A DNA stretch of 64,000 nt from Ulota crispa. Taxonomy: Eukaryota > Streptophyta > Bryopsida > Orthotrichales > Orthotrichaceae. The stretch lies in contig OY987248.1 of NCBI GenBank assembly GCA_963920765.1, forward strand, positions 7,288,539-7,352,538, written 5' to 3'. Made by a program: the position numbers and the translations under genes. This document shows, piece after piece, positions 10,053 to 60,932 of the stretch; positions within the stretch are counted from its first letter, which is position 1, and every line of letters begins with the position of its first letter. The notes under the pieces are model-generated. The model worked only from the letters and a program-made list of their open reading frames with translations, did not search any database and was not told the DNA's origin.

Positions 10053-10633
10053 TTAACCCTTAAACAATGGGTTGGTCTCTGTGACCAGCCCAACTACAAT
10101 ATTTTACACTGTTCATCTCAATGCCCAGCAATTATAATATGATTTCCTAAAATTGCAAGAGTCAGCAATGCATGGTGCCCTCATGAAAATTGCAAGATGT
10201 GTAGTTTGGGACCTAACAACGTGTTTTTGAATCTTCTCACTATTTGAATTACCTAAAAATATGAATACATCTGATGAGTTAATATTTTGCATTTTCATGA
10301 TGGACCATGTGTTTATGATCACCTCTGAAATTAAATTAGATGAAAAACAACTTTTTTCTGTATCATAGAATCATAAAAGGTGAAGAGTTAGTGTTCCAGT
10401 TTGGGATATTGAATTTGAGGTTGGAGCCTAGGGTCAACCATTCAAAAAATTTGAGGCGCCCTTGCGGGCACCACAAGGGGGGTTGGAAATATTTTCAACC
10501 AGCAATTGACGCGTCTCAGTATAATCTCACTAACTGCGTCATTGCCCCAAGCGCAAAGATGCTAACTTATTAACCATTTTGCCTTCTTGTAGCCTTTGGA
10601 GAGAAGAGGCGCTGATTATATTTAAGGGTTATA
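10053..10633 (+). mobile_element. Diverged TTAA-type element, relative of the copy at 47382
   Basis: The left end TTAACCCTTAAACA at 10053 and about 350 bp inside it resemble the element at 47382-47744, including a shared stretch ending catgtgtttatgatc. The right end is uncertain; a weak tttaagggttat at ~10621 is the best candidate. A GC-richer segment at 10450-10560 interrupts the similarity. Confidence 0.45.
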
Positions 10634-10639
10634 TGCACT

Positions 10640-11227
10640 TTTCATGCTCTTGTAGGGTTTTACGTGAAGGAGTCTATACAAGTTGCACATCCATGTTTTA
10701 TAAGGGGGCAGGCAGCGTTTAAACTTCTGGCAAATTTTTACCAAAATCTTACCTCAAATTGTGATTTGTTACCATAACACTAGAAAAATCGGCTGAAAAA
10801 ATGGATGAAATTGTTAGGGTCCTTCCAAGCACATACCAGACCTGCCAAAATTTGAATGAAAGCTACTAATATTAGTTGATTTTGTGGATGAACATGTACT
10901 CGTCGCTAATTCTATCCATTTTTGTTCAAGTTTTTCTTTCATGCTTGCATTGTTGGGTGATTGTCGCGAAACCAACAAAAAACAAAAATTAATGGCTAAA
11001 GGTGGTGTCAAAAATCCAGCTAAATTTTGGAAAACTTCTAAGAGCATCTCTAGCCAACATGTAGTTTTTCATCCTTGCAAATTGCAATGTTTCTTGTTTG
11101 CAAAGTTGAATAATGTTTCCTCCTATTTGTACAACTAGGTAGAATAGTGTTCAACCAATAATTAAGAAGCCTCTTTGTTTGAAAAGTAGATAGATTCTTC
11201 ATCATTGCTTACTCAACCTATTTACCC
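10640..11227. other. Intergenic DNA, nothing recognised
   Basis: AT-rich sequence with no credible gene. A CACTAGAAAAATCGG motif near 10778 resembles a CACTA terminus, but no partner end was found nearby. Confidence 0.4.
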
Positions 11228-11461
11228 TTAATCCTTAAAAAACCATAGGGCAAAGTAAATACATTGCCGTAAAATTAACATTTGCTACCAAAATGAAGTT
11301 TTAATTTGGGATCTCCAATAGCTCACTAGAACGGCTTTGATCTATTCTCCAACTTCTTTGTTGATCTTAACTATAGTAAAGGTGTGAATCTAGTCCAAAT
11401 ACAAGAAAAACACCTCGTATTCTATTGGTCGCACCAGCACGCTATGTCCTTTAGGGGTTAA
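11228..11461 (+). mobile_element. TTAA-bounded MITE (piggyBac-like), 234 bp
   Basis: Begins ttaatccttaaaaaacc and ends gtcctttaggggttaa, both with TTAA at the outer edge. The body (ttttaatttgggatct..., ...ccaaatacaagaaaaacacc) recurs at 11458, 52783, 53436 and 60692. Confidence 0.7.
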
Positions 11462-11674
11462 ACGTCCCAAGGGCATAGTAGATGCGTTGGGCATTTGCTA
11501 CCAACATGAAATTTTAACTTGGGATCTCAATTAGCTCACTAGAGCTGCCTTTAACTATATTCCAACTTCTTTGTTGATCTCAAATGTAGTAGAGGTGTGG
11601 ATTCATTCCAAATACAAGAAAAACACCTTGTGTTGTACTAGTCGCAAAGGGCCTTTCTGACATTTAAGGGTTAA
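11458..11674 (+). mobile_element. Second TTAA-bounded MITE sharing a TTAA with the first
   Basis: Same family as the preceding element and in the same orientation. It starts in the same TTAA (11458-11461) that ends the upstream copy and finishes acatttaagggttaa at 11671-11674. The left end has diverged (ttaaacgtcccaaggg). Confidence 0.7.
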
Positions 11675-11890
11675 CAGATCAAAGAAAAATAGTTTTTAGA
11701 GGAATTTTCATGCACTAGGGAACTATAAATTTTGTAGCATAGGAGGTAATTCTTTGGCAAATCCAAGCATTAACTGCCTCTTTTTCATCCAAAAATGCAT
11801 CTCGTATGGTGTTTTGCCATACGAGTGGAGATGCTCTAACAACCTCATTTTTAACTTTGCTTCAAAAGAACAAGAACATCCTAGAATCTA

Positions 11891-12043
11891 CACTAGAAGA
11901 AATCTTGTCCTAAACGACTAGGTCACAATGACTGCAAATGTCCTAAACAACTAAATTCTAGTGCAATTGGGTCATTGTATAGTCGTTTAGGACATTTGCA
12001 ATTGTTGTGAACCAGTCGTTTAGGACATGTTTTTCTTCTAGTG
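11891..12043 (+). mobile_element. 153-bp non-autonomous CACTA MITE with 3-bp TSD
   Basis: Starts CACTAGAAGAAA and ends TTCTTCTAGTG, with inverted arms of about 40 bp. It is flanked on both sides by CTA (11888-11890 and 12044-12046), the 3-bp target duplication expected of CACTA elements. Internally it repeats TCCTAAACGAC/TCCTAAACAAC four times, a motif also seen near the right end of the 27.5-kb CACTA element. Confidence 0.88.
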
Positions 12044-12735: not shown

Positions 12736-12967
12736 CTAACCCCTAAACGGCCCATCAGCCATTTGTGGCCGTATGTATAGCTGTATGTATAGCCGTATTT
12801 GAGCTGCTATGAGGGCTTTCCAAAAAAAATTATGCACCTACCATTGTACAACCCTTCAATATGTATGGTTGTAACACTTAATTTCCAACTAATTCAAACT
12901 TCTGAATATTGGTTGCAATTGTATTTGGTACTGTATCTCTAGAGCCCAAGGGCCCTTTAGGGGTTGA
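12736..12967 (+). mobile_element. Degenerate TTAA-type element, ~232 bp
   Basis: Ends ctaacccctaaacggccc and gggccctttaggggttga form an imperfect inverted repeat. Both outer tetranucleotides have drifted from TTAA by one base. Confidence 0.55.
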
Positions 12968-13127
12968 AAAGTCATTTTTGTACAAAATTGCATCAAGCTC
13001 AAGCATCAAAATGGCATGACAACCACAAATTTAGAGAATGTGATGTGGTTAGCTATAGAATGAAATGCAATAATTGTTAATTTGGAAAAAAAAATGCAAT
13101 TTTGGGACTTTAGAATTTCATGTTTTT

Positions 13128-13428: not shown

Positions 13429-14281
13429 CACACCAATGGATGCCAAGCTATAAATATTTGGTATTTGTTATAAATTCAAAGAGCTATCTTGTGCACTAGC
13501 ACAGCAAAAGATCCATAGAAATAAAAGTGAAAATTTTAAATGCCACAATTACTTAAAGATGGATTATTCATGTAAATATGGACTTTCTATGCTCTCGAAC
13601 ACTAATTTTTTCAATAATTTACATGTGTTTTGATTTAGACATACTTCTAGATGATATGCAAGTATCTTCTACTGTGTTGTTGGCAATTCCAATGAGTGTT
13701 TTGCAAATCAAAGCAAATTTAGGGTTTTCACTTATGGAATTTGAAAAGTCCATATTTAGTTAAATGTAACATCTAAAGCATAAATTCTAAAATGTGGAAA
13801 TCCCTTATTGTCAATCTTTGACTTAGTGTTGGTTGCTTGGAGAGTTGCCACAAGATCTATGATTTGCACGTTGTAGTCTTTGATTTCTAACCTTTGTATT
13901 TGCAGTCATAGGTTTTCAAATAGTGAAAAATTATGCTTAAAGCATCTCTAGGTGACCTCAAAAACTCCATCATTCACAAATACTGTTTTTTTGTTTCCAA
14001 TGTGAACCATTTGAATTGAAAAACAATGTAATTAAAAAAACCAAAAATGGTGTTTCAACAAGTTTCTTGCAAGAAGCACATAAATTTTGGAGATTTGAGT
14101 TTTTCAAAGGTGAAATACTTTGATTACATTGTCCAATACTAATACCTCATGAAAGTTTACTCCTACACTTTAAAACTCTATTTTTTTTTAACAAGAAACA
14201 TCCAATACATTTAGTTGTTCAATAATACAACATATGTTAAATGCAAAAGGGGCTTATTTTGTAACTGTTGAGTTGTTGTTT

Positions 14282-14654
14282 AGGGAAAACTTCATGGATT
14301 TTCTTCAAGTTTGCAATATTTTCACAGATAACCTTGCTTTTTTAGAAATATCACAAATACCTTTGGACCTAAAAATTTAGGCATTTGTTATGTTGTACAT
14401 GCCACTTCCCTTCTTCCTTGTGTGCATGCATAATAAGAAAGAAACAATGTGCACACAAAAGGAGAAGGAAGTGACATGCATAGCAAAACAATTGCCTAAT
14501 TTTTTTGGTCCAAGAGTATTTATGAAATTTCTGAAAAAGCAAGGATATCTATGAAAATATTGCAAACCTCAAGGATATCTACAAAAATATTGCAAACATT
14601 GGAGATACCTACAAAAATATTGCACACTTCAAGGGTACCCATGAAATCTTCCCT
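14282..14654. mobile_element. Foldback MITE with AGGGAAAA...CATGG ends, ~373 bp
   Basis: The left arm (agggaaaacttcatgg, gcaatattt, gccacttccc) is mirrored by the right arm (ggaagtgacatgc, aatattgca, atgaaatcttccct). The inner right part also contains three tandem diverged copies of (a)aggatatctacaaaaatattgcaaac. A related element lies at 61313-61638 and half copies at ~46185-46250, ~61225-61310 and ~63085-63140. Confidence 0.7.
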
Positions 14655-14912
14655 TGTTTTTAAATTGCAGAATCTGCAAATAAAGATCAATTGTGCAACA
14701 TGGATTGATTTTTGCATGGCAAATCAAACTTGTTTCATTTTCAAAGCATGCAAAGAGCCGCTTGATCTGCCACTTGGACTGTTGCAAGTCTCACCATGTG
14801 CTACTAGATTTGACCTGCAGCCTTGTGCAAAGGCTTTGTGCACACGCTCTGTGCTACAAAGTCAAGTAAATTAGCGGAAAGCCATCACCAACATTCCCGT
14901 CTCAAGATCTTC

Positions 14913-15101
14913 TCACTCCAAAAACAAAAATTGGCAAGAATCATCTAAGCCCTTGCTTGTAGACAAAGCCTCAAGTATGTCTGAAAGAAACTTAGAACAA
15001 ACAAAGGTTACCCAACTCTCTGCAGCTTCTTCTTCAAGCTTCAAGTTCACCAAACTACAAAAGACCCACCATCTTTCACATCCATTCAAGTGCCAAGCCA
15101 A
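14913..15101 (-). other. Conserved open segment upstream of and divergent from the degraded gene
   Basis: The reading frame contains AWHLNGCERWWVFCSLVNLK followed by LEEEAAESWVTF, and the homologous frame in copy 2 (58126-58353, +) reads AWHLNGHERWWVFCSLVNLK and so on. Amino acids are better conserved than expected for random DNA, but the segment is short, lacks a clear start and is not recognised. It could be an exon of a second gene sharing a divergent promoter or simply conserved repeat sequence. Confidence 0.35.
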
Positions 15102-15423
15102 TGTTAGCAGAGATTAATGAGTTTCCACAACTTTGTCACAAGCCTTTGTTGAAGCTCTGGCCGGTTTTTTTTCCTATAGTTTCAAATTAGCTACAGATCT
15201 CAAGAGGGCGCTTAAACATTTTGTTTGCCAGTGCTAGAGAATCAGTTGTCCTAAGACTGGGGTATTCCTCCATGTAGGGTCCTCAACTCTTATTGCAAGA
15301 TTACGCGACTTGTTTTCCTTTAAACTCTAGAAAAATCAAACAATTGCAATCCATTGCTTGTAGAACAAAACGCGCACTCTTGACATTACCTTTAGAAGCA
15401 CGGGATTTCCCATTGATTGAGCA

Positions 15424-15486
15424 GTAGGGTTTAGAATTTAGGGCTAGGGTTCACGGTTTAGGGCTAGGATTTAGGGTTTAGGGTGG
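15424..15486. repeat. Degenerate interstitial telomere-like repeat
   Basis: Several copies of TTTAGGG or close variants (tagggtttag, ggtttagggctaggattt, agggtttagggt) run up to the start codon region of the degraded gene at 15489. The plant telomere unit is TTTAGGG. Confidence 0.6.
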
Positions 15487-15488
15487 CA

Positions 15489-16190
15489 ATGAGGATGTGG
15501 GACAAGTACTGTTTGGTGTGTAGGGGTCCTTCCGCCGTGTTCTTGCTTGACTAGGGGAAGCAACAATCCAAGGCTGCGGACTACACATGGCTCAAAGTCT
15601 TTGTGGGCATTTCTCACATGGAAGAAGTGATTGCTTTGGGTTCCAACTCTAGCTATGAGAGCTTCAACCCTCATCCAGACAAGAAGAAATACAATTTGTT
15701 TGTTATTGGGTGCCAACAAGATAAATATGATGCGGATAAAGCTCACGGGTACGTGTGCCACATGGCATGCTATAGCTTGCTGTAGAGAGAGCTCGGCTAC
15801 ACTCTTTGGTACCAAGATGTGCGGCCGCTGCTTGCTGATGCGAAATGGTGCGCGCTGAATAAGTTTGCAAGGAGTGATTATGGTGGCTTGTCAGAGTATC
15901 ATGACTAGAGCTTTGGTGAAAGGCAATTACTGGAGGACAGCAAGCTGTGGATGATTGAGGATCCCAGTGTCAACGTTGCCAATGTCCAACGCATTCTGGC
16001 ATTGTGGCAACCTCTTGTGCACAGCGGCTTTCACAAGCCCAATTCCGGTGATGCCTTGCATCGTGTTGACGATGGTGCCAATGTTGCTGCTCCCGTGGTT
16101 GACCTCCGTTGTGAAAGTGTTGGCCTTGCAAATGCAACCGCCATTACCGATGTGCAAGAAGTGGTGACTAGGTTAACTTTGAAACAATAG
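15489..16190 (+). pseudogene. Intronless degraded copy of a ~235-codon gene (giant-virus-like CxxC/HGYxCHxxCY protein)
   Basis: From ATG 15489 to TAG 16188-16190 there are 702 nt with no frameshift but with in-frame stops: one near codon 17 (after the CLVC motif), a TAG between CYSLL and RELGY, and a TAG after SEYHD. Motifs in order are CLVC, DYTWLKVFVGISHMEEVIAL, HGYVCHMACYSLL, YQDVRPLLAD, SDYGGLSEYHD, SFGERQLLED, DPSVNVANVQRILALWQPL. The homologue at 57043-55721 has a 615-bp intron exactly between CYSLL and RELNY; here that intron is absent, so this copy may be a retrocopy or an ancestrally intronless form. Function unknown. The motif order resembles an uncharacterised family common in giant DNA viruses; that link is from memory of the family and is not proven. 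Confidence 0.75.
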
Positions 16191-16447
16191 GAAAAAAAAA
16201 AGCCAAACAACTGCTCAAATACTCAAGGTGACTTATATTTATAGTACAAATGTACAAAGATAGGCAATATATACAAAGATAGACATTATGTACAAGTATG
16301 GACAATACTTACATTGAATATTGCATCTACGTTGCCTTATCAATTAGGTTGGATTACCTTAGAAAGTCACCTCATGATTCATCCTTTGGTCACTTGGAGG
16401 TGTGTACAATTGTCTAAATACTAGGCTTTCTTATGGTTTACAACATA

Positions 16448-17178
16448 AAAGAAAATTGTTTCTTTTTTATGTAGCGTCATCATTGTTGCCAAATTGTTTA
16501 TGAACTATTTATTGTAGTAAGTTTTAATAAAAGTTATAGTGAGATCAATATGTATTTATATAGCGTAAAATGTCAAGAAATCAATGTAGGGCAACTTGTA
16601 AGCAATATCCACTATAGTGCATGCTCGTGAATAATTGGTTGAAAATAGAAAATGCTAGTGGATGATCTCAAAAGTCTCTTGCAACACATGCAATGATGTT
16701 GCAAGTGAGTTGACAAGTAAACACACAAGTGTTTTGGGGGTTGCAAATTGCAAATACTTAGCATGACATTTTAAAACTTGCTCTTGCTTGCCAATAGAAT
16801 TCCTCCCTAAACTTGCATATAGAACCTTTTTTGCAAGTATTGCATTTCTCCTCATTAGAGACAGTGGTAAGAGATAGGGGTAGGAGAGCTTGATATGTTG
16901 CACAAATACACATATGTATTTGTGAGCTTGGTATGGAAAAGCACAAAGTTTAATTTATGTACAAAGATAAAAGCTCAAAATTTGCCGTTATCTTGGAGTT
17001 GGTCAATTTGATTGCCTTCCATGGGTTCAACTAAAAAGTAAAAGTCTTTGAATGAATAACAAATCTTAAACTCCCAATTTCCTTTCTTCTCATGATAAAT
17101 CTCTAAAACTTTCTTGCTAGGTGGAGAATTTGAACTTTTGAACCCCGGCCCACAAAACATGTATGATTGTATGTGCAG
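16448..17178. other. Intergenic DNA, nothing recognised
   Basis: AT-rich stretch with no convincing coding or repeat structure beyond short runs. Confidence 0.4.
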
Positions 17179-23726: not shown

Positions 23727-24148
23727 GGGCATTGATATGTGTACCACACCCTTTGAACAAATGTCCCACACCTCTGGGACAAATTATAGATTTTTACAAT
23801 AAAAATATTTAATTTGAGAATTTTGAATTCAAATTTGGACTCAGAGAGCATGATTTTGTCTAGAACCATAAGAAAAGTTACAATTCAACAACACCCAATG
23901 AAAAGGTTTCTCTTCTTTTACAAATAAAAGTAAAAATAATATTTTTTTCCCTAGCTAAACATTTTCATTGTCTGTTGTTGAATTGAAACCTTTTTTTATA
24001 TCTCTAAACTAAATCATAGTCTCTAAGTCCAAATTTGAGTTTTAAATTCTTGACTTCAATATTTTCTTGGTAGAATTCTAAAATTTACACCCGGGGGGAG
24101 AAGGAGTGATATAGTAGTTGAGAGGGTGTGGTACACATATCCATTCTC
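23727..24148. mobile_element. Mutator-like foldback MITE, copy 1 (422 bp, 9-bp TSD), nested in the CACTA
   Basis: Outer 9-bp direct repeats TTTTATAAA at 23718-23726 and 24149-24157. The ends gggcattgatatgtgtacca and its inverted partner share GATATGTGTACCACACCC. The interior is a long imperfect hairpin with arms containing caacacccaatgaaaa and its inverse. Homologous copies are at 46385 and 61648. Confidence 0.85.
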
Positions 24149-26356: not shown

Positions 26357-27077
26357 TGCTTCAATTGTTGATTTATTGAAATCAACACAAACATAAATAA
26401 ATAATGAGTATTTATAGGATGGAAGAAACTCCATCAAAATAACGTTTGGTATTCCACCTTCATTGCACATGTACTACATGTATTACATGTATACAAAAAA
26501 CCATTTTTAGCTTAAACATTCCTGAAATTCTGATAGGCAAATAATGAGACTTGAATAATGTATAAGACAATGCATGCTTCAATTTGTTTTAAAATTAAAT
26601 TTTGGCGATTCAAATACAGAAAAAATAAAACAAATAAAATTCGGGGTCATACTTTCACTTCTATTTTGCATAAACAGATGTACAAAAAGAGTTTTTACCA
26701 CTTGTGACTGCCATTAATGTCAATCATGTCTTCACAACCTACAAAAATATAAATAGAGATTTCGACGTCAATGCATGACGTATTTGAATGACTTTCTCTA
26801 CAACATATATGGAATATGAAGATACTATATCAGCTGCCATTTTTGAAACTGTCGTCCATTAGATAAAACAATATTTCTCCTCTATACTTTTGATATAGAG
26901 TGAAACAAATAATATTACTCTCCAATATATGCACTAAGCACATGTTAACAACATAGAGTACTAGAAATACTTTGTCAAAACCACTGTACATAATACTTTA
27001 TGTATTTAAAACATTTCTATTACTACAACACAATACATTGGACAGACCCTGTGAACTCTAACTAATTTGATTCTTCA

Positions 27078-27316
27078 CATAAAAACTATAAACTCCACAA
27101 ACTAAAAACATGTTCACACACCCCCTGGAGTTATGCTACTTCTCCATTGTTTTCTTAAAATTAAACCCTTCACAAATCATGGTCTCCTTCATTGTCTCAT
27201 AAAAACTATAAACTCCACAAACTAAAAACATGTTCACACACCCCCTGGAGTTATGCTACTTCTCCATTGTTTTCTTAAAATTAAACCCTTCACAAATCAT
27301 GGTCTCCTTCATTGTC
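27078..27316 (+). repeat. Exact tandem duplication, 119 identical bp, period 120
   Basis: 27078-27196 and 27198-27316 are identical base for base. The surrounding DNA is old and diverged, so this duplication is recent, or it is an assembly artefact. Confidence 0.95.
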
Positions 27317-37809: not shown

Positions 37810-40800
37810 ATGTTGGGGTTGGCTGAGTACCCTTGTGCTTGCAAACGATGCAGGGGGGCTTATGTGAAGAAAATTGATGTTATTGCCAGGCATCACATCA
37901 GACATGGACGTAATCGATTCTTAGTGTACCCAATGATGGTAAATTCTAATGTCTACACTTGTAAAATTGTCTTTTCAAGTAATAGTACTCACTTTTGGAC
38001 AAGCATGTTAAGTCGGTTCTAGGGTGCCAAACTTTTTGCTCCTGTCTAGATTGTCATGGGTAATTTGTTGTTTATTGTAAATAGGCTTATCATGTTTAAT
38101 TTCCCATAAATTCATACTCTTGCATACATTGCTTGTATACAAATTAGTATTAATGAGTGTAATTACTTGGAGTATGACAAAGGTACTTTTTTGTAACTCA
38201 TGGCAACCAAATGTTGTTGTGTCAAATTATTGATGGGGAGCATGTTTGTGGTCCTGTCAAATAGAGGGACATAGATGGAGAGCATTATTGTGAAAGTGAA
38301 AGGGAAGATTCTGGAGATGAGTTAAGGTGGCTCTCGAGGGTTCCTGTGGATGTGGACCACATGGCCAGAGATGCATTTGGTAGAGTCGACAACATTCACA
38401 ACAAGGTTATGGATAGTGACTACCATGGAGAGTTTGACTTCACTAACCTAGAAGAGGACCAACAGTGGAATGAAACAAACTTGGAATATTTGGAGCAAGA
38501 ATCCATTGAACAAGTGTATGAAGGTAGCATTCAGAATTGTCTGCAGTGCGCAATTGTACTATACTCCCTATACAATTTATACTCAGTTCCACAAACATTT
38601 GTGGACGCATTGCTAAAGTGGATTGTTGGAGACCTTTTTCCCAATTCAAACCGCTTTCCTAGAATGTCGTACGAGGTGAAGACTATGCTGATGAAGTTGG
38701 GATTGCAGCATCGCCAAGTGCACTGCTGTCCTCATGGCCACGTCCTATACGAGGGGGAACAAAAAAACCTCATAAGATGCCCGACTTGCTTGGAGAGTTG
38801 TTATGTTGCAGGATCAACTTCAATTCTTCAACGAGTTCTTCAATGTTTTGATTTCATCAAGCATATTGTTTGACTGTTCAAATGTCCGGAGATTGTGAAG
38901 CATATGACGTGGTACAACAACCACAAGTCTACTAATGGATTGATGAGGTTTGTTGCAGATAGTGTGCAATGGAAGACTGTGGATCAGCTATATCTAGATT
39001 TTGCAGATGTCAAGACAAATTTGAGGCTTGGACTAGTTGGAGATGACATAATTCCGTACAAGAATAATGCTATTAAGCATTCGACATGGGTTTTTCTAAT
39101 TGCGATTTATAATCTTCCACCCTGGCTATTGACAAAGAAGTTCTTCATTTCTTTGGTTCTCCTCATTCCCGGCCCAAAAGCTACTACTGCTAAAAATGTA
39201 GATGTCTTCCTAGGGCCTGTAATTTGTGATTTGTTGACGTTGTGGAGAGGTGTTCTAGTAGTGAACGTTTCCAAACAAGAGGGCAAAAGAAGGTTCACAT
39301 TGAGGGCGATGTTGATATTAACAATAAATGACTTACCAGCATACGGGCTTTTATCTAGGCAACAAGTCCATGGTTACAAAGGGTGCCCCCTTTGTGGTCC
39401 AGAGACTTGTGCCGAACATGCAAGACTTCTTGGAAAAATGTTATATCTTGGTGGGAGGAGGTATTTGGATGGTACTCATCCAATTCGGAAGGATAGAGCA
39501 GCATTCAACAATCACCAGGAGTGGCACATGGCTCCACAAAGACCAACAGGAGATGAAGTTTTGCAATGGGAACTTCAAGAGAGGAGTTCATAAGATAAGG
39601 TGGAGTTGAAAATAGCAGTGATGATCTAGTCAAACTCCATGGTGTGAAACAAAAGATAATTTTCCATCAACTCCCTTACTGGACGGTAAGTTTTTTTTAT
39701 CTTTTTCTTAGTAATGACTTCCTTTTAGGAATTCATTCCATTCACTTGTATTACTTGTAGAAAATGAAGTGGCACAAATTTTGTTGCTTGAACAATGCAT
39801 AGAGAAATGGGAGAATGAGGTCATTTCCGTATAGGAAGGAAGGAAGAGGGGTTCATATTATGAGGAAATTGCATTGTTGTTTTTGTAATTGTTCATAGCT
39901 AAAACACTGTAATTCACGTAATGTAGGTACATCAATGTGAGCTCTGATAACTGAAATGGACCGGTAGCTTCATTGAGAATGAATAAGAAGTTACATTTTG
40001 TGGACCAATTGAACTAAAGAAAAGATCTTCAATTCTTTTGGATAAACTGAACAGAATATCTGGTTTTCCATTTTTCTTTACAGGTTCCAAGGTTAGGGTT
40101 TCTAAGAAACGCATAGTGAGAAATATTTGTCTAATACAAAGAAATTTTAGAAATCAGAAGCATTTCAGAAAATGTTCAAATAATAAGAAAGAAAATAGTG
40201 TTACACGTGACATTGTGTTTTATCAAAATTTAAAAAAGGCGTGAACTATTCATGCTTTATAAATATCCGGGAAAATTGAATGAGCTATTGAGATAATTAT
40301 CTTTGAGCTAACTACCTTAGGCATATTCTGGTATTAAAAGAGTCGTGAGTAGGGCCTTGGCTTTTTGTGAAGAGGGAAGGGAGGTTTCAATGCACGTTAA
40401 TATGTATTGTTTCAGTAATGAGTCTAAGGAAAATTTTAATTATAAATCATTGACTTAATGTATGTTAGGATGTTTTAACCACAAGTCCGCCATGTGTATT
40501 CGTTTGAATATGCAGACCAGCATATTCTCGGAATTTCTTACATCAGCTCATGTTAATGTTTGAAAAGTATACGTCTCCAGTTAGGTGAAGTGTTAAGAAT
40601 GATGGTGGGGATATACTTTCTAACATGCAATTTGTTGTTTCATGAATGAATTGAGTAGTTACTTTAAATGCTACAAACACTGTTGCTAGTTTGGAATGCT
40701 AGTATAGCATCCTACAGTGCCCATGTAATCGATGGCTGTGGGCATCATTAGAATGATACCTTTTCTTGCACTTACACTTCAGATTTTTTATATTATGCTT

Positions 40801-42974
40801 AGTGTATCAAATCTTTAAATCTAGAATGAAACTACCTTTATTAGGGTTTCAGAACTTCTAACTTATGATATTGTCGTACATGTGTTTGCAGAAGCTACAT
40901 GTATGTCATGGTCTTGATCCCATGCATTGCAAAAAAATATTTGTGAAAACATTCTAAAGACAACGTTTGGAGAAAAAGATTCACCTACGGTTAGGGCACA
41001 CATGCAGGCAAGATAAATTTGACCTAATCTTCATTTACAAATAATTCCTGGTCATGTGGACAAGTATTATATGCCACACGTCCCTTATGTGTTAACTCAG
41101 GAAGATAAGGGGAAGGTGCTATCTATGTTGAAGTCTCTACACACTCCTACTCATTATGCAAGCTCTTTACACACAAAAATCAACAAGGGGAAGTTAAGTG
41201 GTATGAAATCCCATGATTTTCATGTTCTACTACATCAAATATTGCCCTTGTATTTTTGAACTATATCTAACAAATCTCTAGCGCAAGCAGTACTTTGCTT
41301 GAGTAGAGTTTTTTGGAAAATATGCAGTAAAACAGTGAATTATGAAGATAAAGACCAGCTGGTGGCCGAATGTGCGGAGACAATATGTGTATTAGAGGAG
41401 GAGATGCCTCCATCATTTTTTGATATTATGTCTCACCTGCCAAACCACCTGGTGGAAGAGCTTTTTTTGCTCGGGCCAGTACACACCAAATGGATGTATC
41501 CATACAAGCGCTATTTCAAGACATTAAAGGGCTATGTTAAAAATTTAGCTAAACCTGAGGGAAGCATTGCTCAAGGCTATCAAATAGAAGAAGCCCTTGG
41601 TTTTATAACTAAGTATATGTTTGAGTACAAAATTACATCTAGAAGAGTGTGGGACAACAAGGAGGACCCAACAATGGTAGACAAGATTGTGGAGGGGAAG
41701 GGGAAGAAGAGATAGTTGTCACTGGAGTTACGGAATGCAATGCATGAATTTGTTTTGGACAACTCAGCCCATTTAGAGCCTTACTGGAGGTGAGGTTCTC
41801 TTTATTATTGCACTATGTGATTTCTGTGTGTTGGTAGGAAGAACACACATCAGTACACCAAGGAGATAAGGCAATTTACAAGTGAGTTGTAATGAATACT
41901 TTTGAAGAACTAAGGAATCATTGATGAATGAAGCAGCAATCATGACACAAATTTTCTATGTGTAGCTGTAGTTACTGTAGTGAATGCAAGCCGTACTCTA
42001 TTTTTGTACAAAATTATTCATGTTTTTTTAATGGTTAGTTCTAAGGATTTTTTGGGTTGTGATGAAGGATATAAGAAGAAATTTGGCAGCAAAGAGCTAC
42101 TGCAAGAGCAAAGTTCCGTAATATAAATCCACAAAGGACCAACCGCAGATGGGTGCCATACCCTATAGATTTGGAGGAAATCCCACCATTTTTAGAGTGG
42201 ATTAAAGGAGCAATACAAACCGATCAAGGGAATGGCATAGCAATTCCTGAAGAAGTTGTGGCATGCTCTATAGAACCGTTCTTAAGCGCACAAAAATTTA
42301 GAAGTATGTACGCTTATGGATACCACTATAGAGTGAAAAGTGCTAAAGAAAATATTACGAAGACCTGCAATTTTGGGATTGCTACTGTTTTTTAGAGACC
42401 TTGTCAATCTAGCAAACGCGATTTGAACCTGATTGATGCATCCCTTGAGTATATAGGACAAATATTGGAGATTGTGGAATTGAACTATGGACAACATTGT
42501 ACCCTATTGCTAGTGTGTGAATGGGTAAAGGCAAATTATAGGGGAAGAAATGCAACCGTGAAGAAAGATGACTGGGGATTCACCATGGCCAACTTCAATT
42601 CACTTGTACTGTTTGGCTATGAGTCTTTTGCTTTCCCTGTGCATTGTGACCAAATCTTTTTTTTTGACATCAAAGAGGAAGCAGGTTGGAAGATAGTCCT
42701 ATGCAATGAAGTTTGAGGGCGTCGAGTGGAGAGTGCACAAGATGAAGATTGGGAACCAGAGATGTTTAGAACGGGAGAGAATGCAAACTTTCCTAGGCTT
42801 TGAGACCTTCCAACAGATCTTGATGTAGATGCGGCCCCCATTCAAAATGGGAAAAACATCCAGATTAATGAAGTATTCAGAGAAGCAACCAAGGAGGAAG
42901 CTGCAAGTTTTGATCGTGATGTCAGGAATCCTCAAAGGACGACTAAGAATATTTCATGGAATAAAATCAATTGA
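37810..42974 (+). pseudogene. TNP2-like CACTA transposase gene, degraded
   Basis: The order of parts matches plant TNP2 (Transposase_21) proteins. There is an N-terminal zinc-binding exon (37810-37938, YPCACKRCRGAYVKK and a His pair) with a donor at 37939. The core follows from ~38265 (MTWYNNHKSTNGLMRFVADS, LRLGLVGDDIIPY, IYNLPPWL, LIPGPKATTAKNVDVFLGP, INDLPAYG, GYKGCPLC), then LPYWT up to a donor near 39687. Another exon begins at 40892 (LHVCHGLDPMHCKK), then SGMKSHDFHVLLHQILPLYF, the DUF4218 region (41299-41715: MPPSFFDIMSHLPNHL, WMYPYKRYFKTLKGYV, KPEGSIAQGY) and a DUF4216-like C-terminus to the TGA at 42972-42974. Premature stops lie at 38871, 39591, 40955, 41257, 41713, 42393, 42714 and 42801, and a frame change lies between ~40958 and 41056. 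Most stops look like point mutations in an otherwise well-kept protein, so inactivation is moderately old. The encoded enzyme would cut and join the CACTA ends. Confidence 0.92.
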
Positions 42975-45472: not shown

Positions 45473-46384
45473 AAGGGCCATTTTTGACTGAGGATTTGGA
45501 TTACAAAAAAGGCTAAAACAACTAAGACTTTCACAAATGAGACATATTTGTTATATGTTTGCAACACTTGCAGATGCAAATGCAGATGTGCACTAAAATA
45601 TCATTTTGATTTTATTTCATATTTTTGTGTAATATTAATCTTAGATTTAATAAGTTGGGCTATATGGGTGTCTCCCTAGCAACTGGGGGTGTTTCCCTAG
45701 TCATTTTTTTTTTATATTTCAAATAATATAGGGGTATATTTGATATTTTGAAAGAATTCAAGGGCATTTTTTATATTTTCCCTAAAATATATCTAGTACT
45801 TTATGAACAAGGATAAACGTAAGAATGAGCTTGTTTTTTGGAGTTGATCATTTAATTTGCTTTCAAATATTTTCTCAATGAAGCATGGTCTTTGAATTCA
45901 AATGCAATTTCAAATTTCTCAAATTCAATCTCGTAATGATAATTTCTTGAAACGCTTACATTTTTTGGCATGTAAGAAAAAGAAGCTCTTTCACCTTGGC
46001 CCCACAAACAAGGTGTCAGATTCATTAAGACCAGCATGAGTTTTAGTATGCTCCATGCTAGAGCTTAAGGAGGGGGATGCTGAAAAAGTACTCAAGGTTG
46101 ACGGATTCGCAAGAATTGCAAGAAAGAGAAAGAAACCCGGAAGGAGGAAAGAAATTGCTTCGGTCAAAGGGCATTTGTGATATTATTGAAAAAGCAAGGA
46201 TATCTATGATATTATTGCAAACTTCACGGGTATCCATGAAATTTTCCCATGATTTTATCACCTATTTTCAAACTATTTCTTTGACCTCTCAACAAAATTT
46301 GGCCACTCAATTCCACAACCTCTCTACTTAACTGGGCTTAATGTGAAGTGCCAGAAGCATCATAAGCTGTTGGAAAATTTATTT
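45473..46384. other. Intergenic DNA with partial foldback repeat
   Basis: AT-rich flank of the CACTA element. At ~46185-46250 lies a half copy of the AGGGAAAA/CATGG foldback (aaagcaaggatatctatgat... to ...ccatgaaattttccc). Confidence 0.5.
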
Positions 46385-46796
46385 GGGGATTCATATGTCT
46401 ACCACACCCTTTCAGCTATTCTACCACACCCCCAGAGTAAATTTTAGATTTCTACCATCAAAAGGCTGAATTTGAAAATTTGGAATTCAGATTTGGACTT
46501 AGAGACTATGATTTAGTTTAGAATCACAAAAAGGTTCTAATTTAACAACACCCAATGAAAAAGTTTATCTTTTTTATAAACAAAAGTAAAAGTTATACTT
46601 TTCCCCTGAGCTAAGCATTTTCATTGGATGTTGTTCAATTAGAACCTTTTTCATATGGTTCTAGACAAAATCAAGGTCTCTAAGTCCAAATCCGAATTCC
46701 AAATTCTCAAATTCAACTATTTGATGATAGAAATCTAAAATTTACCCCGGGATGTGGTGGAATAGTTGAAAAGGTGTGGTAGACATATCAATCCCC
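46385..46796. mobile_element. Mutator-like foldback MITE, copy 2 (412 bp, 9-bp TSD)
   Basis: Ends ggggattcatatgtctacca and its inverse ...ggtagacatatcaatcccc. Flanked by exact 9-bp repeats AATTTATTT (46376-46384 and 46797-46805). The interior is a long hairpin (aacaacacccaatgaaaaag paired with tttcattggatgttgttcaa). Confidence 0.9.
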
Positions 46797-46949
46797 AATT
46801 TATTTTTATGTTTTTACAAATTTAGCAACTTTGGGGACTCTAAAAAATAGAGACATATTTTAAAGTGTGAACCCTATGGAGTAATGGGCAAGTATAAAGT
46901 TCTCAACCAAAACAAACCCGAGTTGAAAAAGAGAAAAAAGAAAGAAAGA

Positions 46950-47381: not shown

Positions 47382-47744
47382 TTAACCCTTAAACGTCAAG
47401 CCCATCCCCGTGGCCTGCCCAACACAGTGACTTCTACTACAGTGTTTTTCAAGGATTTTAAAACTATGTTGGTGTAACAAGTGCCCAGCTAGCTAGCTGC
47501 AAAAGTGAATAGTCCTAGTTGACCTCACAAAAATTGTAGGAAGGACAGTATGGATCTTCTCACAATTTGGATTGTCTGAAAATATGAGTGTATTTGATGA
47601 AGTTATTTTTTGTCTTCTATGATGGAGCATGTGTTTATGATCGCTGTTGGGAAAAAATCAGATAAAATATGCTTTTTTCTACCATACAAAATGTTTTTTC
47701 AGAGGCAAAGACGAAAAACATCCTTCTGGACGTTTAGGGGTTAA
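47382..47744 (+). mobile_element. TTAA-bounded element inside the STMP1-like 5'UTR intron, 363 bp
   Basis: Left end TTAACCCTTAAACGTC; right end GACGTTTAGGGGTTAA; together a near-perfect 16-bp inverted repeat with TTAA at both edges. A diverged relative starts at 10053, and an inverted end fragment lies at 55397-55444. Confidence 0.78.
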
Positions 47745-52044: not shown

Positions 52045-52685
52045 TTAACCCCTAAATGCATGCGGCACCAAATTTTGGTGTCGGCAATACTCTGAAGCTC
52101 AATAAACATGACTAAGCTGCTAATTTTAGTAGTTTATATTTTGGATTTATTCTTTGCAAAATTAAGTTTTACGATCAAAAATCTGATTTTGAAAATGATT
52201 GATTATGAGTTTTCTCATCAAGCTTTTGTGCAAGGATCTTGACTTTCTCTAGTGTTGAGTGCTCTTGGAAATGAGCCTCAAATACACTATATCTTGGAGA
52301 AAAATTTACACTAAAAATTCATTTGAAAAAATTGTAGAAGAGATTTTGAAAAACCGTAAAGTGATTGAGGTTATGTGTGTTATTTCCTTTGACCTTATAT
52401 TTTTTTGATGACCATTTTTGAGATCCAATATGTGAAAAGAGGATTCAAAGGCTTCAAGTCATTTTTGTAGTTTTAACACCCTCATGATCAAACATTATAA
52501 TCTTTCAATCCATAAACAAAACTGTTGTGTTTTCTTTTCCTATGTAACCTCTAACATATATAGTTTGAATTTGTATGGTTACAATTTAAATGAACTTGAT
52601 GCAACTTATTATAATGTTGCCTTTTTGTTTAGTTTGAAGCAAATTCCTAGAAGCTCAGAAACGGCCTCAATCATTTAGGGGTTAA
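52045..52685. mobile_element. TTAA-bounded element, 641 bp, perfect 14-bp ends
   Basis: Starts TTAACCCCTAAATG and ends CATTTAGGGGTTAA, an exact inverted repeat including the TTAA. The interior is AT-rich without a transposase. Confidence 0.75.
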
Positions 52686-52782: not shown

Positions 52783-53022
52783 TTAACCCTTAAAAGACTG
52801 CTCTACATATTACATAGTATATACTCTATTGTATAATTGGCATTTGTTACCAATAAAGAGTTTTAATTTGGAATCTTCACTAACTCACTAGAACCGCAGT
52901 GCTCTATATTCTAGCTTCTTTGTTGATCTCAAATATAATAAAAGTGTGAATGCATTCCAAATACAAGAACATACCAAATATTGTATTGGCCGCAAAGGGC
53001 TCCTTGGTCCTTTAAGGGTTAA
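52783..53022 (+). mobile_element. TTAA-bounded MITE, 240 bp
   Basis: Starts ttaacccttaaaagactg and ends gtcctttaagggttaa with TTAA at both edges. The body matches the copies at 11228, 11458, 53436 and 60692. Confidence 0.78.
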
Positions 53023-53072
53023 TGCCCGGGTTAATGCCCGGGTTAATGCCCGGGTTAATGCCCGGGTTAATG
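53016..53072 (+). repeat. 12-bp tandem repeat GGGTTAATGCCC (4 full copies plus part of a fifth)
   Basis: The repeat begins in the last 7 bp (GGGTTAA) of the neighbouring element. Each unit carries one TTAA, so the array seems to have grown by slippage or repeated cut-and-fill at the element's right junction. Translated it gives LTRA repeats, but there is no sign of a gene. Confidence 0.95.
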
Positions 53073-53435: not shown

Positions 53436-53658
53436 TTGACCCTTAAATGACCATAGGGCATAGCATATACGGTGCCGTATAATTGGCATTTGCTTCTACG
53501 AAGAAGTTTTAATTTGGGATCTCAAGTAGCTCATTAGAATTACATCCAATTTTTTTGTTGATCTCAACTGTAATAAAGGTGTGAATTTATTCCAAATACA
53601 AGAAACACACATGGTATTGTATTGGTTGCAACGGCACGCTTAGACATTTAGAGGTTAG
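53436..53658 (+). mobile_element. Degenerate TTAA-type MITE, ~223 bp
   Basis: The ends ttgacccttaaatgacc and acatttagaggttag have drifted, but the body clearly matches the 52783 and 60692 copies. Confidence 0.65.
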
Positions 53659-53715
53659 TGAATACCCTTGATTTTTTGGAAATTGTAAAGGTGGCCTTGT
53701 ATGGGTTTTGAAAAT

Positions 53716-54243: not shown

Positions 54244-54585
54244 ATGAATCTATATTCAGAGGAGAATGAAATTTCCAAGTTAGAATTTATATTAGTTGGG
54301 CCCCATGAAGGGCACTCCAAAAAAAGGAGTATGCCGGTCAATGTACCTAGCGCACGGTATTCTTTAGTAAAAGGCGAAAGAATAGTTCGCTCTGTGCTGA
54401 GCACCCGACAGATTGAAATTACTAGCCTACGAGCTTTCTTTATATACCGCATTGTGGATGTAGACCGTCCAAGCCTTATGGGTTATACTGAAATTTGCAA
54501 GTTCTGGCCGGGTTTTACTACTTACCTTTGCAAAACAGTGTTACTGAATAAACAGGGTTACTTCAAAATCGTTCTTTTGACTTAA
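54244..54585. other. Compositionally distinct island, possible foreign or organellar fragment
   Basis: Roughly 300 bp (about 54290-54560) have higher GC and a different codon-like texture from the AT-rich surroundings, with long frames open on both strands (113 codons +, 100 codons -). Neither translation is recognised. A mitochondrial DNA insertion is one possibility. Confidence 0.25.
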
Positions 54586-55396: not shown

Positions 55397-55444
55397 ACTG
55401 TAGCCAGGCTGGTTGCGGTGACCAGTTTGGTGTTTAAGGGTTAA
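55397..55444 (-). mobile_element. Inverted end fragment of a TTAA-type element
   Basis: Read on the minus strand it begins TTAACCCTTAAACACC and continues like the element ends at 10053 and 47382 (gtgaccagc-like, cagtgttttacag-like). The other end was not found. Confidence 0.5.
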
Positions 55445-55720
55445 AGAGCTTGACAACAACAACAAAGCTACAAAAAAAATAAACTATTGACTTCCAAGTT
55501 GTAAGCCATATGAAATCCTAATATCTACAAAGTTACATGTGCCTCCAAGTGGCTCAGCAATGACTCATGAGAATACTTTCTAAGGTAAGGCAACCTCAGA
55601 GTAGTAATTGCCTATATTTGTACATATATTTGTTCATACTACCTATCTTTGCATGTACACTTATACTATAATTATAAGTTTTCTTCAAAATTTGGCGGTG
55701 GTTTGGCTTCTCTTTTTTTC

Positions 55721-57043
55721 CTATGATTTCAAAATTAACCCAGTCACTTCTTCTTGCACATCGTTTGTGGCGACTTCATTTGCAATGCCAACACTCTCTT
55801 AACGGACATCACCCCCCAAAGCAGCAACGTCGGCCTTGGCGGGCTGTGACGCATCATCACCAAAATTGGGTCTTTGGAAACCGATGTGCACAAGAGATCG
55901 CCACAACGCTAGAATGCGTTGAGCATTGGCAATGTTGACGCTGGGATCCTCAATCATCCACAGCTTGGCGTCCTCCAGCAATTGCCTTTCACCAAAGCTC
56001 TGGTCATGATACTCTGACAAGCCACCATAATCACTCCACGCAAACTTATTCAGCGCGCACTCCTCTGCATCAATGAGCAATGGCCGCACATCCTGGTAGC
56101 GGAGAGTGTAGTTGAGCTCCCTCTGCATCAAGCTATTGTGAGATGATATTCAACCATGACATTCATCGACATTGGACTCAAAGTTTTCATCTCCTACTTC
56201 ATGTGTAGATTATTAGTCTTCTACCAGTAGCGTTAGTTTAATTCTAGTTTGTCTCGTTCCAATTACAGTAGAGAGTGTTTGCGAGTAAGAGAGAGTAAAG
56301 CTCTTCAGGTAAGAGGCTAGAACTCAGTTAGGGTAGTAATACCGCTCACCTCCCCAAATGAACTCCACCGATACATGCCCTTATTCATAGCCTTTCAAAA
56401 ATGTATAGCAGGCGTACATCAGATGAAGTGATCCATTTTAGAGCCCTATGACCTTTCCACTTCAAAATTTCATAACTAATTCCACATTGCTCTAAAAAAA
56501 ATACAAAATAACTTGCGTTAGATGTCAATTTTTCTTGTCTTTCAAGGAAAATTTACTGAAATATTCCCAAAATTCAGTTTCAGCTCTTAGATGGTCGGCT
56601 TATGAGCCTCTTACCTTAAAGCTCCGAGGAACGTTAGGGAATTAGTAACACGACTTTGTTTTGTTTGCATTAATTAATAAAGTGATTCATGTGTTTGATG
56701 AGATCTGTGTAACTGATAATAAAATTAGATAACTTACAACAAGCAAGCTGTAGCACGCCACGTGGCACGCGTACCCGTGCGCTTCGTTGGCATCGTATTC
56801 GTCCATTCTGCACCCGATATCGAACGAACTGTACTTCTTCTCGTCTGGATGAAGGTAGAAGCAGCCCATGCCAGAGTCGGAACCCAAAGCGATCACTTCT
56901 TCCGTGTGAGAAATGCCCACAAAGGCTTCCAGCCATGTGTAATCTTCGGCCTTGGGTTGCGGCTTCCCCGAGTCAAGCTCATCGTCGAAGAACACGGCGG
57001 AAGGACCCCCACACACCATACAGAACTCGTGTCACGCTCCCAT
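55721..57043 (-). pseudogene. Degraded ~235-codon gene with one intron (giant-virus-like CxxC/HGYxCHxxCY protein)
   Basis: Exon 1 57043-56738 (ATG at 57043-57041), intron 56737-56123 (GTAAGT ... gatgcag), exon 2 56122-55721, TAG at 55723-55721; 708 nt in total, in frame. Two stops break it: codon 4 is TGA where the other copy has TGG (Trp), and a TAA near codon 210 sits where the other copy has TGT. Motifs: CMVC, DYTWLEAFVGISHTEEVIAL, GSDSGMGCFYLHPDEKKY, HGYACHVACYSLL, LNYTLRYQDVRPLL, SDYGGLSEYHDQSFGERQLL, DPSVNIANAQRILALW. Most of the protein is well preserved, so the gene was functional until fairly recently or is still read from a downstream Met. CxxC and CHxxC suggest a metal-binding fold. 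Function is unknown; the motif order resembles a giant-virus family (see the finding). Confidence 0.78.
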
Positions 57044-57306
57044 TGCCACCAGAATCAAACCAGAATCCTACCGAGGAATCAACAGAAAAACCCGCGTGCT
57101 TCTGAAGGGAACGCTGATGCCGGCGGGGCTACACAGGCGACAACCAGTTTGAAACGTATGAAGAAGTAACTTGTTTTTTTGGAAAATTGGGACACACCAA
57201 CCACTTTTCTAAGTTTTCATTTGCTGTCCTACTGAAGATAGCCTCTCCACCATTCTAGGGAAGGAGGGCGGTTTCTAAACTTTCATATACGTCACTACAG
57301 TCAGTA

Positions 57307-57731
57307 AGGTAGGAGCACCCAATTGCAACACCAGCCGTTCTCTAACATCTAAAATTAAACCTAAAACAAATAGATTTGCACCCAATCAAGATATGAATGC
57401 ACCCAAATAAGACAGAAATGCACCCAAATCAGACACTCAAGTTGACATAAGGGAATAGAAATTGTGTAAGTGGCAATTATTAATTGGGTGTGACATGCGC
57501 ATGACACGGTCTTGTTGTTGTTGCTTTTTAAGGGGTCTAGTGTCTACAATAGGCAAGTCAAGGGAGTTGTTTTCAACAATTCATAATTTATTCATATGAT
57601 CTCAGAAAATTCCAAAAACAATTTTCCTTGCATCTGTATCCATTTCCTAACAAACCCATGCCATCAAATTCTCAGAAGACCCTCCCAATTACCACATCTG
57701 AGGTAAGTGTTGCATTTGGGTGCTTCTACCT
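57307..57731. mobile_element. TA-flanked MITE (AGGTAGGAGCACCC ends), 425 bp
   Basis: Ends AGGTAGGAGCACCCA and TGGGTGCTTCTACCT-like, flanked by TA at 57305-57306 and 57732-57733. It lies inside repeated unit copy 2 and is absent from copy 1. Confidence 0.8.
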
Positions 57732-58125
57732 TATTGAACAGACCAAACAAGTAGGAGTAAAATGTCAAAGAATCTGATTTTCTACCTGGAAGTAATAGCC
57801 GCCACCTATTTTTAACAAAACCGAATGTTTTGAAATGCGAGTTTGGTTTGGTGTGGCCTGGCCTTGAGAGTGCGCGTTCTATTCCACACGCAGTGGATCG
57901 CGAGGGTTCAATTTTTCTAGGTATTGAAGGAAAACCAGTCGGGGAATCTTGCAATAGGAGTTGAGGACCCTACATGGAGGAACAGCTCAATCTCAAGACA
58001 ACTGATTCCTCAGCAATGGCAAAACTAAAATGTTGATCTTTCGAGATCTGCAGCGCACTTGAAACTGGAGGAAGAAAACCGGCCAGAGCTTCAACAAAGG
58101 CTTGTGACAACGCTACTAAAACTCT

Positions 58126-58353
58126 ATGCTAACAAAGGCTTGTGAAAAAGCTATGGAAACTCATAAATCTCTGCTAACATTGGCTTGGCACTTGAATGGA
58201 CATGAAAGATGGTGGGTCTTTTGTAGTTTGGTGAACTTGAAGCTTGAGGAAGAAGCTGCACAGAGTTGGGTAACCTTTGTTTTTTCTCTAATTCTCTTTT
58301 CAGACATACTTGAGGCTTCGTCTACAAGCGAGAGCTTAGATGACTCTTATTGA
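58126..58353 (+). other. Conserved open segment in unit copy 2
   Basis: Reads TLAWHLNGHERWWVFCSLVN followed by LKLEEEAAQSWVTF, homologous to 15101-14913 (minus strand). An intron-like GTAACC...ttttcag stretch follows SW (only ~40 bp). Unknown; could be an exon of a gene divergent from 57043-55721. Confidence 0.35.
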
Positions 58354-58478
58354 TCTTTGTATCACAGAGCGTGTGCACAAAGCCTTAGGCTGCAGGTCAA
58401 GCCCAGTACTGTAGCACATGGTGAGACTTGTAACTGCTCATAAGGCAGAACAAGCGGCTCTTTGCATGCTTTGAAGAG

Positions 58479-58727
58479 TGAACCCCTGAGCGTCCCAGTG
58501 ACCAAATTTTGGTAGCTCTAAATAAAAAGAGTTCCTTCTTTTGTTTGCTATAATATTTTCATTGGCATAGTAAAATAGTTGCCCTTTCTCACGTACCTTG
58601 GGGCCTCTCTCCACTCCTTATCGATACGGTCAATTTCTACAAATCTTGTTTTTGGTAACAATTTAATTTGAATAAGTTTGTATAGGTTTAGATTTTAGTG
58701 AACACAGGCTCCGGGCTCAAGGGTTAA
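58479..58727. mobile_element. TTAA-type element, ~249 bp, abutting unit copy 2
   Basis: Left end tgaacccctgagcgtccc and right end gggctcaagggttaa form an imperfect inverted repeat, with TTAA kept on the right and TGAA on the left. The similarity between the two repeated units stops here, so the element may mark or have created the boundary. Confidence 0.5.
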
Positions 58728-59029
58728 GAAAGAAACAAAGTTTGATTTGTCATGCAATAATCAGCCCATGTTGCACAATTGATGCTTGTTTGCAGATTTT
58801 GTAATTAAAAAAAAACATAAAAGTAACAAAATAAGTTCTTTTAGTGTTGAACAACCTAATGTATTGGATATTTCTTGCAAGAAAAAATGGATTTTTGAGT
58901 GCAAGGGCAAGTTTTCATGAGGTAGTAGCATTGGACACTGTAATTAAAGTATTTCACCTTTGAAAAACTCAAATCTCCAAAATTTATGTGCTTCTTGCAA
59001 GAAACTTGTTGAAATACCATTTCTGGTTT

Positions 59030-59911
59030 TTAACCCCTAAAGGACCAAGGAGCCCACTTTAGGCTTTATGAGAACTTGGGCAGGCTCTATTGACTTCATG
59101 ATTTGGAAATTTTTCATGAAATTTTTAGGATGGATATATGCTCCTCATCATTACCTACATGTGAAGTTTTATTTCATGTCATTCCAATAAGTAATGCAAA
59201 AGTTATAAGGTATTTTCAATTTCAATGTCAAATTGGGCAACAAAAAATATATTCTAAATTTTTATTTTTATTTTTTATAGAATTGTATAGATTGATACTT
59301 ACTCAAAAAAAAATTGAATCACTCAATTCCAACTAATGAAGTAAGCGTTAAAATGAGTTTTATTTTGCAGGCAATGAAGGTGAAAACATGGTAGAAAAAA
59401 CATATAAATTTATCTTTTACTCTCAATTTCAAAAAATTTCAAATAAAAATGAAAGTTATTAATTTTTTGTTAGAGCATTCTCACCAAAGGGATTGACATT
59501 TTTCAAATTCTTCCAAATACCTTTCGCTTTACAATTTTTGTAAAAATGAATCCAAAATTGTTTTTGGTCAATTTTTTTAATGTATGCTTTCAACCCATTT
59601 TCCAACATATTGCCAAAATTGCACAAGAAATACAACACACGTATTTTGTTTAGAAAGTTTGAAAAACAAAACTTCACCTTGTGGAAGGACTAGAAAAGCT
59701 TACATTTTGAAGTTTAGGCACATTGATCTTGCAATTGGTGTGGATATTTATTTTGAAATTTTGGGATAATTTACTTGTGCAAGCCAACCAAAGGATCTTA
59801 TGGTTGGATTTGTTAAAAAGTAAGTTTCAATGAAGATTTTGACCCTAATTTGAGAACTAGTAATTTGAAGCAATTTTGAGCCTCTAAACACAAAAGAATT
59901 TTAGGGGTTAA
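59030..59911. mobile_element. TTAA-bounded element, ~882 bp
   Basis: Left end TTAACCCCTAAAGGACC, right end TTTTAGGGGTTAA, TTAA at both edges. The interior is AT-rich with no transposase frame. The largest member recognised here. Confidence 0.6.
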
Positions 59912-60691
59912 TTATGTACTTTTCCAATACAATTCCATGCATGGCTCCATACCTTGTTTGTTTTTTCCTAATGTTTTCAGTTCCAGATCACCATGAAAGG
60001 TTACCCTAAGAGCTAATTGCATGCTAGCTTGGAGTAAAAAAAAACTCAAAAACAACAAACAAATTTGATGCGTAAAATGATTTATCATTTTGGGTTTTTT
60101 GATTTTGGAGTTAGCATGGGGATATGCCTAAGAAGACAAAAGAGAAGAGGAGATGTTCATGAGTGGTTGAATTTAGTGAAGGGAAGACAGACAAGAAAAG
60201 TGTTGATCCATGTAAAAGGGTGGTTAGTTGATAAAAAAACAAGAGTTCTGTACGCAAGTAGGCATGATTCAAGAATGCAGCTTCTTTTTTAAGGATTTTT
60301 GTGAACATGTATTTGGAAGAGTAAGTTTGATGAAATTGATTTAGAATAGAAGCTTGCAATTAATATTAAACTTGTTGCTTTAGAGAAAAAATCTTGGTCC
60401 AAGCGTAGAGATAGTTTGTTATGAAGAGCAGTGTTGTCATGAAAATACAAAATACTATTCTTTTTAAATCACCAACCTCCTTAAAACACTAACCTCCTTA
60501 AATGCCAAATTGTGCAATTCATGAAAAAAATGGTCAATGAACACTCTCACCAACTTGACAACATTTCCATACTTGGACGGTTCATGAAAAAATTGAAACT
60601 ATAATTCTATATCTTGAGAGGCTTCAAGGGCCAATGAACAGAATCTCCAAGTCTTGCAAGCTAAATAAATATTAGCAACCACTTGTAGTCT
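59912..60691. other. Intergenic DNA, nothing recognised
   Basis: AT-rich. A 75-codon frame at 60065-60292 has no recognisable motif and is not called a gene. Confidence 0.4.
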
Positions 60692-60932
60692 TTAACCCTT
60701 ATAGGACCATAGGGCATAGTATATACATTGCCGTATATTTGGTATTTGCTACCAAAAAGAAGTTTTAATTTGGGATCTCAAGTAGTTCACTAGAACTATT
60801 TTGATCTATTCTCCAACTTCTTTGTTGATCTCAAATATAGTAGAGGTGTGGACTGTGGATCCATTCCAAATACAAGAAAAATACCCCATATTGTACTGGT
60901 CACAGCGGCACGCTCAATCCTTTAGGAATTAA
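60692..60932 (+). mobile_element. TTAA-bounded MITE, 241 bp
   Basis: Starts TTAACCCTTATAGGACC and ends CCTTTAGGAATTAA. The body matches 11228, 11458, 52783 and 53436 closely (gaagttttaatttgggatct). Confidence 0.78.

Follow-up and report, generated by a model that had tools for sequence, protein, structure and literature searches.

The piggyBac transposons are best known from animals, and they are valued for their ability to excise without leaving a footprint. A published rule for the superfamily gives inverted ends of 12–19 bp that start with CCYT (PMC10175614 and PMC2872659). Plants are listed among piggyBac hosts in general statements (PMC10140906, PMC10813416, PMC10794571), a table of fern repeats gives 1,230 piggyBac copies at 0.00% (PMC6890710), and a 2023 review of the use of piggyBac in plants states that all DNA transposons so far found in plant species leave a footprint (PMC10905368). 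Here we describe a population of TTAA-bounded elements with common ends in the moss Ulota crispa, recognised in a 64-kb stretch at 7.29–7.35 Mb of the 22-Mb contig OY987248.1 (hereafter the window), and we conclude that the elements of the window are very probably non-autonomous members of the piggyBac superfamily, of the miniature inverted-repeat transposable element (MITE) type.

The elements are genuine, far above chance expectation and spread throughout the genome, as three counts indicate. First, the end sequence TTAACCCYTAAA, with up to one mismatch, has 21 occurrences in the window; 100 dinucleotide-preserving shuffles gave a mean of 1.33 ± 1.04, and the observed number was not attained in any of them. 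Second, the exact sequence TTAACCCYTAAANNNNC occurs 24,290 times in the 274.8 Mb of genome searched (12,150 + 12,140), and the same pattern read backwards only 54 times (27 + 27). Third, 19 sampled 10-kb stretches, all within the first 5.5 Mb of six contigs and placed at positions fixed before their content was known, contain 21 exact ends and no copy of the reversed motif. The most abundant end is CCCCTAAAGGACC, and in 20 paired elements the two ends match in inverted orientation over 14–30 bases including the TTAA (10–26 without it), mismatches allowed. The original prediction, made from the letters of the window, had recognised these elements correctly, together with their range of lengths (217 to 882 bp). 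Its seven strong examples hold up in part: in those beginning at 47382, 52045, 52783 and 59030 both ends carry exact motifs, and those at 11228, 11458 and 60692 deviate.

The TTAA is a duplicated target that is present once in an unoccupied relative of the insertion site, as the original prediction had supposed. The element at 59030–59911 lies within one arm of an inverted duplication, with TTAA on both of its sides, and the other arm is unoccupied and has a single TTAA (Table 1). In ten copies of the same family at other loci fetched from this genome (L029–L038; L numbers denote loci fetched from the genome), TTAA is present on both sides in all ten, and one of these, L030, has two unoccupied relatives (L018 and L022), each with a single TTAA. 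An unoccupied relative was found for eight of the 46 elements having both flanks, the empty arm of the window falling just outside the rules used.

The genome encodes many transposases of the piggyBac type, at no fewer than 116 loci. A profile search with PF13843 (DDE_Tnp_1_7) gave 120 matches, all over the curated cut-off (116 of 528 candidates scored), the best with 254.5 bits over positions 2–349 of 349. Two of the moss frames match the solved structure of piggyBat (PDB 9c0f) with E values of 2.4e-25 and 2.6e-24, and that of piggyBac (PDB 6x67) with 6.4e-24 and 7.6e-20; three aspartates, which we take to be the catalytic ones, line up in the piggyBat alignments of both. Six transposase frames are 32–55% identical to one another, and in a tree of 18 of 25 homologues, all gathered from a single query, these six and four unnamed database proteins form one clade (99/98) separate from two named insect proteins. 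Judged by their sequences there are several transposase lineages, at least four, and the single transposase that the original prediction had moving all of the families is not borne out. The 14 control genomes of the profile search carry little information on plants, because the plant family SAM_LFY also scores in none of the 14. Twenty open frames, selected from the many in the window and the sample, were scanned against Pfam; the scans revealed a CACTA transposase and DUF4218 besides ordinary domains, and no piggyBac domain.

Two further observations concern the transposase loci. Long open stretches lie upstream of the piggyBac domain at L043:1–1497 and L051:729–1790, both with the words LSFRDVVA and KPKRKY, so that a large N-terminal part may be present in some of the moss transposases. 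Transposase hits with equal or nearly equal scores are also present as oppositely oriented pairs 15–109 kb apart (C2:36765124/36779670, C7:18203169/18223004 and C10:676128/785346), which suggests inverted segmental duplications.

Transposases and elements are linked by the ends. Right ends at transposase loci read TTAACCCTT..., the same type as in the window elements: TTAACCCTTCATTGCC at L039 and L048, TTAACCCTTCACCGCC at L044, TTAACCCTTTAGCGACC at L051, TTAACCCTTGCATGACCAAAGGG at L052, and TTGACCCTTTAAGGACC at L053, where TTGA replaces TTAA. L039 and L048 match one another at 90% over 4 kb, the similarity ending no more than one base from a TTAA with the inward sequence CCCTTCATTGCC. With up to three mismatches, the L051 end is present at 985 places genome-wide (9 for the control), the L052 end at 265 (control 0), the L044 end at 137 (control 0) and the L039 end at 39 (control 3). 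The commonest form among 100 listed places for the L052 end is TTAACCCTTAAATGACCATAGGG, from which the window element at 53436 differs by one base. The positions of such ends were compared with 116 transposase intervals, using the listed places of the L051 end, the L039 end and one further set (those of the L052 and L044 ends left out) and excluding the query copies. Six of the 217 places are no more than 3 kb away on the 3′ side of a transposase and face it, where about 0.14 would be expected by chance; they are drawn from all three sets (4/99, 1/37 and 1/81), and the other three classes of position and orientation hold none.

The piggyBac assignment of the original prediction is supported by these findings together: a duplicated TTAA target, PF13843 transposases in the genome, and ends of the same type beside some of them. 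By analogy with the superfamily, the genome's own piggyBac transposases would bind the shared ends in trans, and an element would be cut out at its TTAA and re-inserted at another by the cut-and-paste route, possibly with clean excision. Insertion into the TTAA at the end of a neighbour would leave two abutting elements with one common TTAA, and would account for arrangements of this kind. They are found at 8514–8533 in the window, and also in L028 near 6601 and L023 near 8903. Of the neighbours that had been proposed to share a TTAA, those at 8514–8533 are confirmed; the pair at 11228 and 11458 does share one, but is a 213-bp tandem repeat.

Several observations weigh against the piggyBac assignment. 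No transposase element with both ends was recovered: left ends were not found in L051, where the right end only was recovered, or in L054, where an N-terminal exon of the C1 gene is present and a matching TTAA end is absent. Likewise, no complete source element is present among the loci read. The exact most abundant end was not met at any transposase read, the ends there differing at no fewer than two of 17 bases from those of the window. The transposase with the same ends that the original prediction had envisaged is accordingly seen in its right ends beside some genes, and not in left ends or in the commonest end. The C1 element end is low in copy number, its last 300 bp matching only itself and one relative at 69%, and this element is for that reason not established as a driver. 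Stop codons are carried by 110 of the 120 PF13843 rows, leaving 10 stop-free. Among the eight elements with unoccupied relatives, the relatives of six carry one to four base differences from TTAA (one of the six, L033, is nested inside another such element), so that the alignments give a clean empty site for two elements only, the others being compatible with TTAA duplication. The ends are also imperfect by the published standard. The inverted match outside the TTAA in the 59030 family is only 8 bp (CCCCTAAA), short beside the 12–19 bp of the rule, and ends begin with either CCCT or CCCC, the latter breaking CCYT at its fourth base.

These points have to be set against other ways of explaining the same repeats. 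Kolobok and Sola3 are superfamilies that also duplicate TTAA. It could be supposed that the elements belong to one of these and that the piggyBac genes are coincidental, the more so as the dedicated search covered piggyBac transposases and not those of Kolobok or Sola3, and as TTAA MITEs of the Kolobok group have been described in Xenopus (PMC6004289). We consider this improbable: same-type ends are found on the 3′ side of piggyBac transposase genes, facing them, and the ends begin with CCC as in piggyBac. Among the common kinds of plant MITE are Tc1/mariner, which duplicates TA, and PIF/Harbinger, which duplicates TTA or TAA. Were such elements to prefer TTAA, a duplication of two or three bp inside it would leave the same letters as a duplication of all four, which is a further point against the piggyBac assignment. 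Yet TTAA stands on both sides in ten of ten fetched copies and the ends are tied to piggyBac transposases (those of Tc1/mariner and Harbinger were not searched for), and an origin of this kind seems to us highly improbable. Finally, the end TTTAGGGG is similar to the plant telomere unit TTTAGGG, and a TAGGGTT array is present in the window at 15425–15484, so that telomere-like sequence or simple repeats, and not transposons, might be thought sufficient. The copies, however, are dispersed with fixed boundaries, have paired inverted ends and have empty sites, and the reversed-pattern control gives no such numbers; the chance that they are not transposons is negligible. Membership of the piggyBac superfamily thus stays the reading that we favour.

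The interiors of the elements differ, as had been predicted. A library of 43 elements was assembled from the window and the fetched loci, after four mispaired elements were dropped and seven were added by hand, and resolves into 18 interior families under a rule of 60% mutual coverage; seven of these have at least two members, and the largest have lengths of about 920, 650, 240 and 955 bp. A single common interior was considered, single linkage having chained 26 of 40 elements, but was rejected on the strength of the mutual-coverage result. A first look at the genome gave 1329 candidates for the ~920-bp family, 3719 for the ~240-bp family and 3471 for a ~360-bp family, totals that are not copy counts because only 40 per family were scored. 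For the ~920-bp family, 35 of the 40 listed rows (the element's own copy included) align over bases 1–882. Listed copies other than the queries are 77–89% identical, and a very recent burst is therefore not suggested. Matches to the library cover 15,838 of the 190,000 bases of the sample (8.3%) and 7.5% of the window; the former share is only rough, because the library holds the sample's own elements and the sampled sequence lies in the opening 5.5 Mb of six contigs.

Table 1. TTAA-bounded elements, ends and an unoccupied site in the window. Positions are those of the window.
Feature	Position	Strand	Basis
882-bp element of the ~920-bp family, TTAA on both sides	59030..59911	+	Empty site in the window at 14011–14137
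Unoccupied relative of the 59030–59911 site, one TTAA	14011..14137	-	Joined flanks match it at 90.6% over 127 bases
641-bp element of the ~650-bp family, ends TTAACCCCTAAATG	52045..52685	+	Exact ends; 7-member family in library
240-bp element of the ~240-bp family	52783..53022	+	Exact ends; 6-member family in library
Decayed copy of the ~240-bp family, left end TTGA; right limit approximate	53436..53670	+	End inspection and library comparison
Copy of the ~240-bp family, right end GGAATTAA	60692..60931	+	40 of 3719 candidates scored, copies 77–89% identical
Copy of the ~240-bp family, first of 213-bp tandem pair, left end TTAATCC	11228..11461	+	
217-bp second copy of tandem pair, TTAA shared, without CCCCTAAA on the left, start TTAAACGTCC	11458..11674	+	
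363-bp element	47382..47744	+	Exact ends
232-bp element, outer bases decayed (CTAA ... TTGA)	12736..12967	+	Pairs with L004:1501–1732 in library
Partial copy of the ~360-bp family	10053..10372	+	42 other matches, none beyond query base 323; 3471 candidates
Two abutting ends with one common TTAA (TTCAGGGGTTAACCCTTTAA)	8514..8533	.	
Lone exact end, with 63 bases related to the end at 10053	55433..55444	-	

The locations of the features in the window are listed in Table 1. A 580-bp element at 10053–10632 with a captured U4 RNA gene was entertained and dropped: in all 42 other matches the ~360-bp family stops by base 323, and the copy at 10053 is therefore regarded as truncated, with the sequence after 10372, U4 RNA gene included, outside it. 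That gene is a full-length Rfam match to U4 spliceosomal RNA (10420–10560, minus strand, 87.2 bits), and U5 spliceosomal RNA is also matched at full length (54298–54410, minus strand, 80.8 bits). A 12-bp unit, GGGTTAATGCCC, forms a perfect tandem array of 4.8 copies at 53016–53072, which starts from the right end of the 52783–53022 element and repeats its GGGTTAA.

The window has further features. Two long inverted arms, 14036–16500 and 55442–59031, lie about 39 kb apart and are 72–94% alike in pieces; between them are a CACTA-type transposase (PF02992) and a DUF4218 frame (38874–39590 and 41260–41712), and candidate readings of the arms are an inverted gene duplication and a giant inverted-repeat element. 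The left half has negative GC skew and the right half positive. A second repeat family, some 420 bp in length and with long self-complementary arms, is present at 23776–24097, 46374–46807 and 61644–62063 and in L042, L013, L003 and L016; no relation between it and the TTAA ends was seen. There is also a direct tandem duplication of 120 bp at 27075–27314, 99–100% identical. The inference of a plant host was right, and the land plant in question is a moss. Among named proteins, the closest relatives of a VIT/VWA-domain protein from the sample are those of Ceratodon purpureus and Physcomitrium patens (55–63% identity, with unnamed proteins up to 67%), and a LEAFY-type domain scores 103.6 bits; the host is not closely related to either of these two mosses.

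The significance of these elements lies in their host and their numbers. The superfamily is known but the host group is poorly documented for it, and it is the host and the copy number that are notable; the suggestion that such elements might be new in land plants holds to the extent that none is described in a moss among the open-licence full-text matches listed, the superfamily and its MITEs being known. The piggyBac superfamily emerges as contributing substantially to the genome of a land plant, and a native moss piggyBac with thousands of non-autonomous copies would offer plant biologists an endogenous system for testing footprint-free excision. We put forward tentatively, at somewhat less than even chances, the wider proposal that mosses host an old and diversified piggyBac radiation, in which non-autonomous copies occupy about one-twelfth of this genome and are moved by several transposase lineages with compatible ends, some frames are stop-free, and excision is native, TTAA-based and possibly footprint-free.

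Stowaway and Tourist elements use other transposases and other target duplications. As plant MITE classes (named in PMC2872659) they are, like the moss elements, high-copy, short, non-coding and bounded by inverted repeats. Kolobok of Xenopus (PMC6004289) has in common TTAA and long-lived MITEs, and differs in its transposase superfamily. With piggyBac and piggyBat the moss system is alike in its DDE_Tnp_1_7 domain, TTAA duplication and CCC-starting ends; it differs in the moss host, in the non-coding nature of the window elements, in families with an inverted match of 8 bp outside the TTAA, and in that no complete source element was read. The closest described parallel that we found is that of the coral CMITEs and AmiPB (PMC2872659), which are likewise small non-coding TTAA elements of several end families beside piggyBac-like genes. 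The left end of coral AmiPB2, CCCTTTAACGCCC, is close to CCCTTTAGCGACC of moss L051, and CMITE family III also begins with CCCC, departing from CCYT as the moss ends of that form do. The CMITEs are about 100 bp long with a conserved interior, whereas the moss elements range from about 80 to 1450 bp, have unrelated interiors and are far more numerous.

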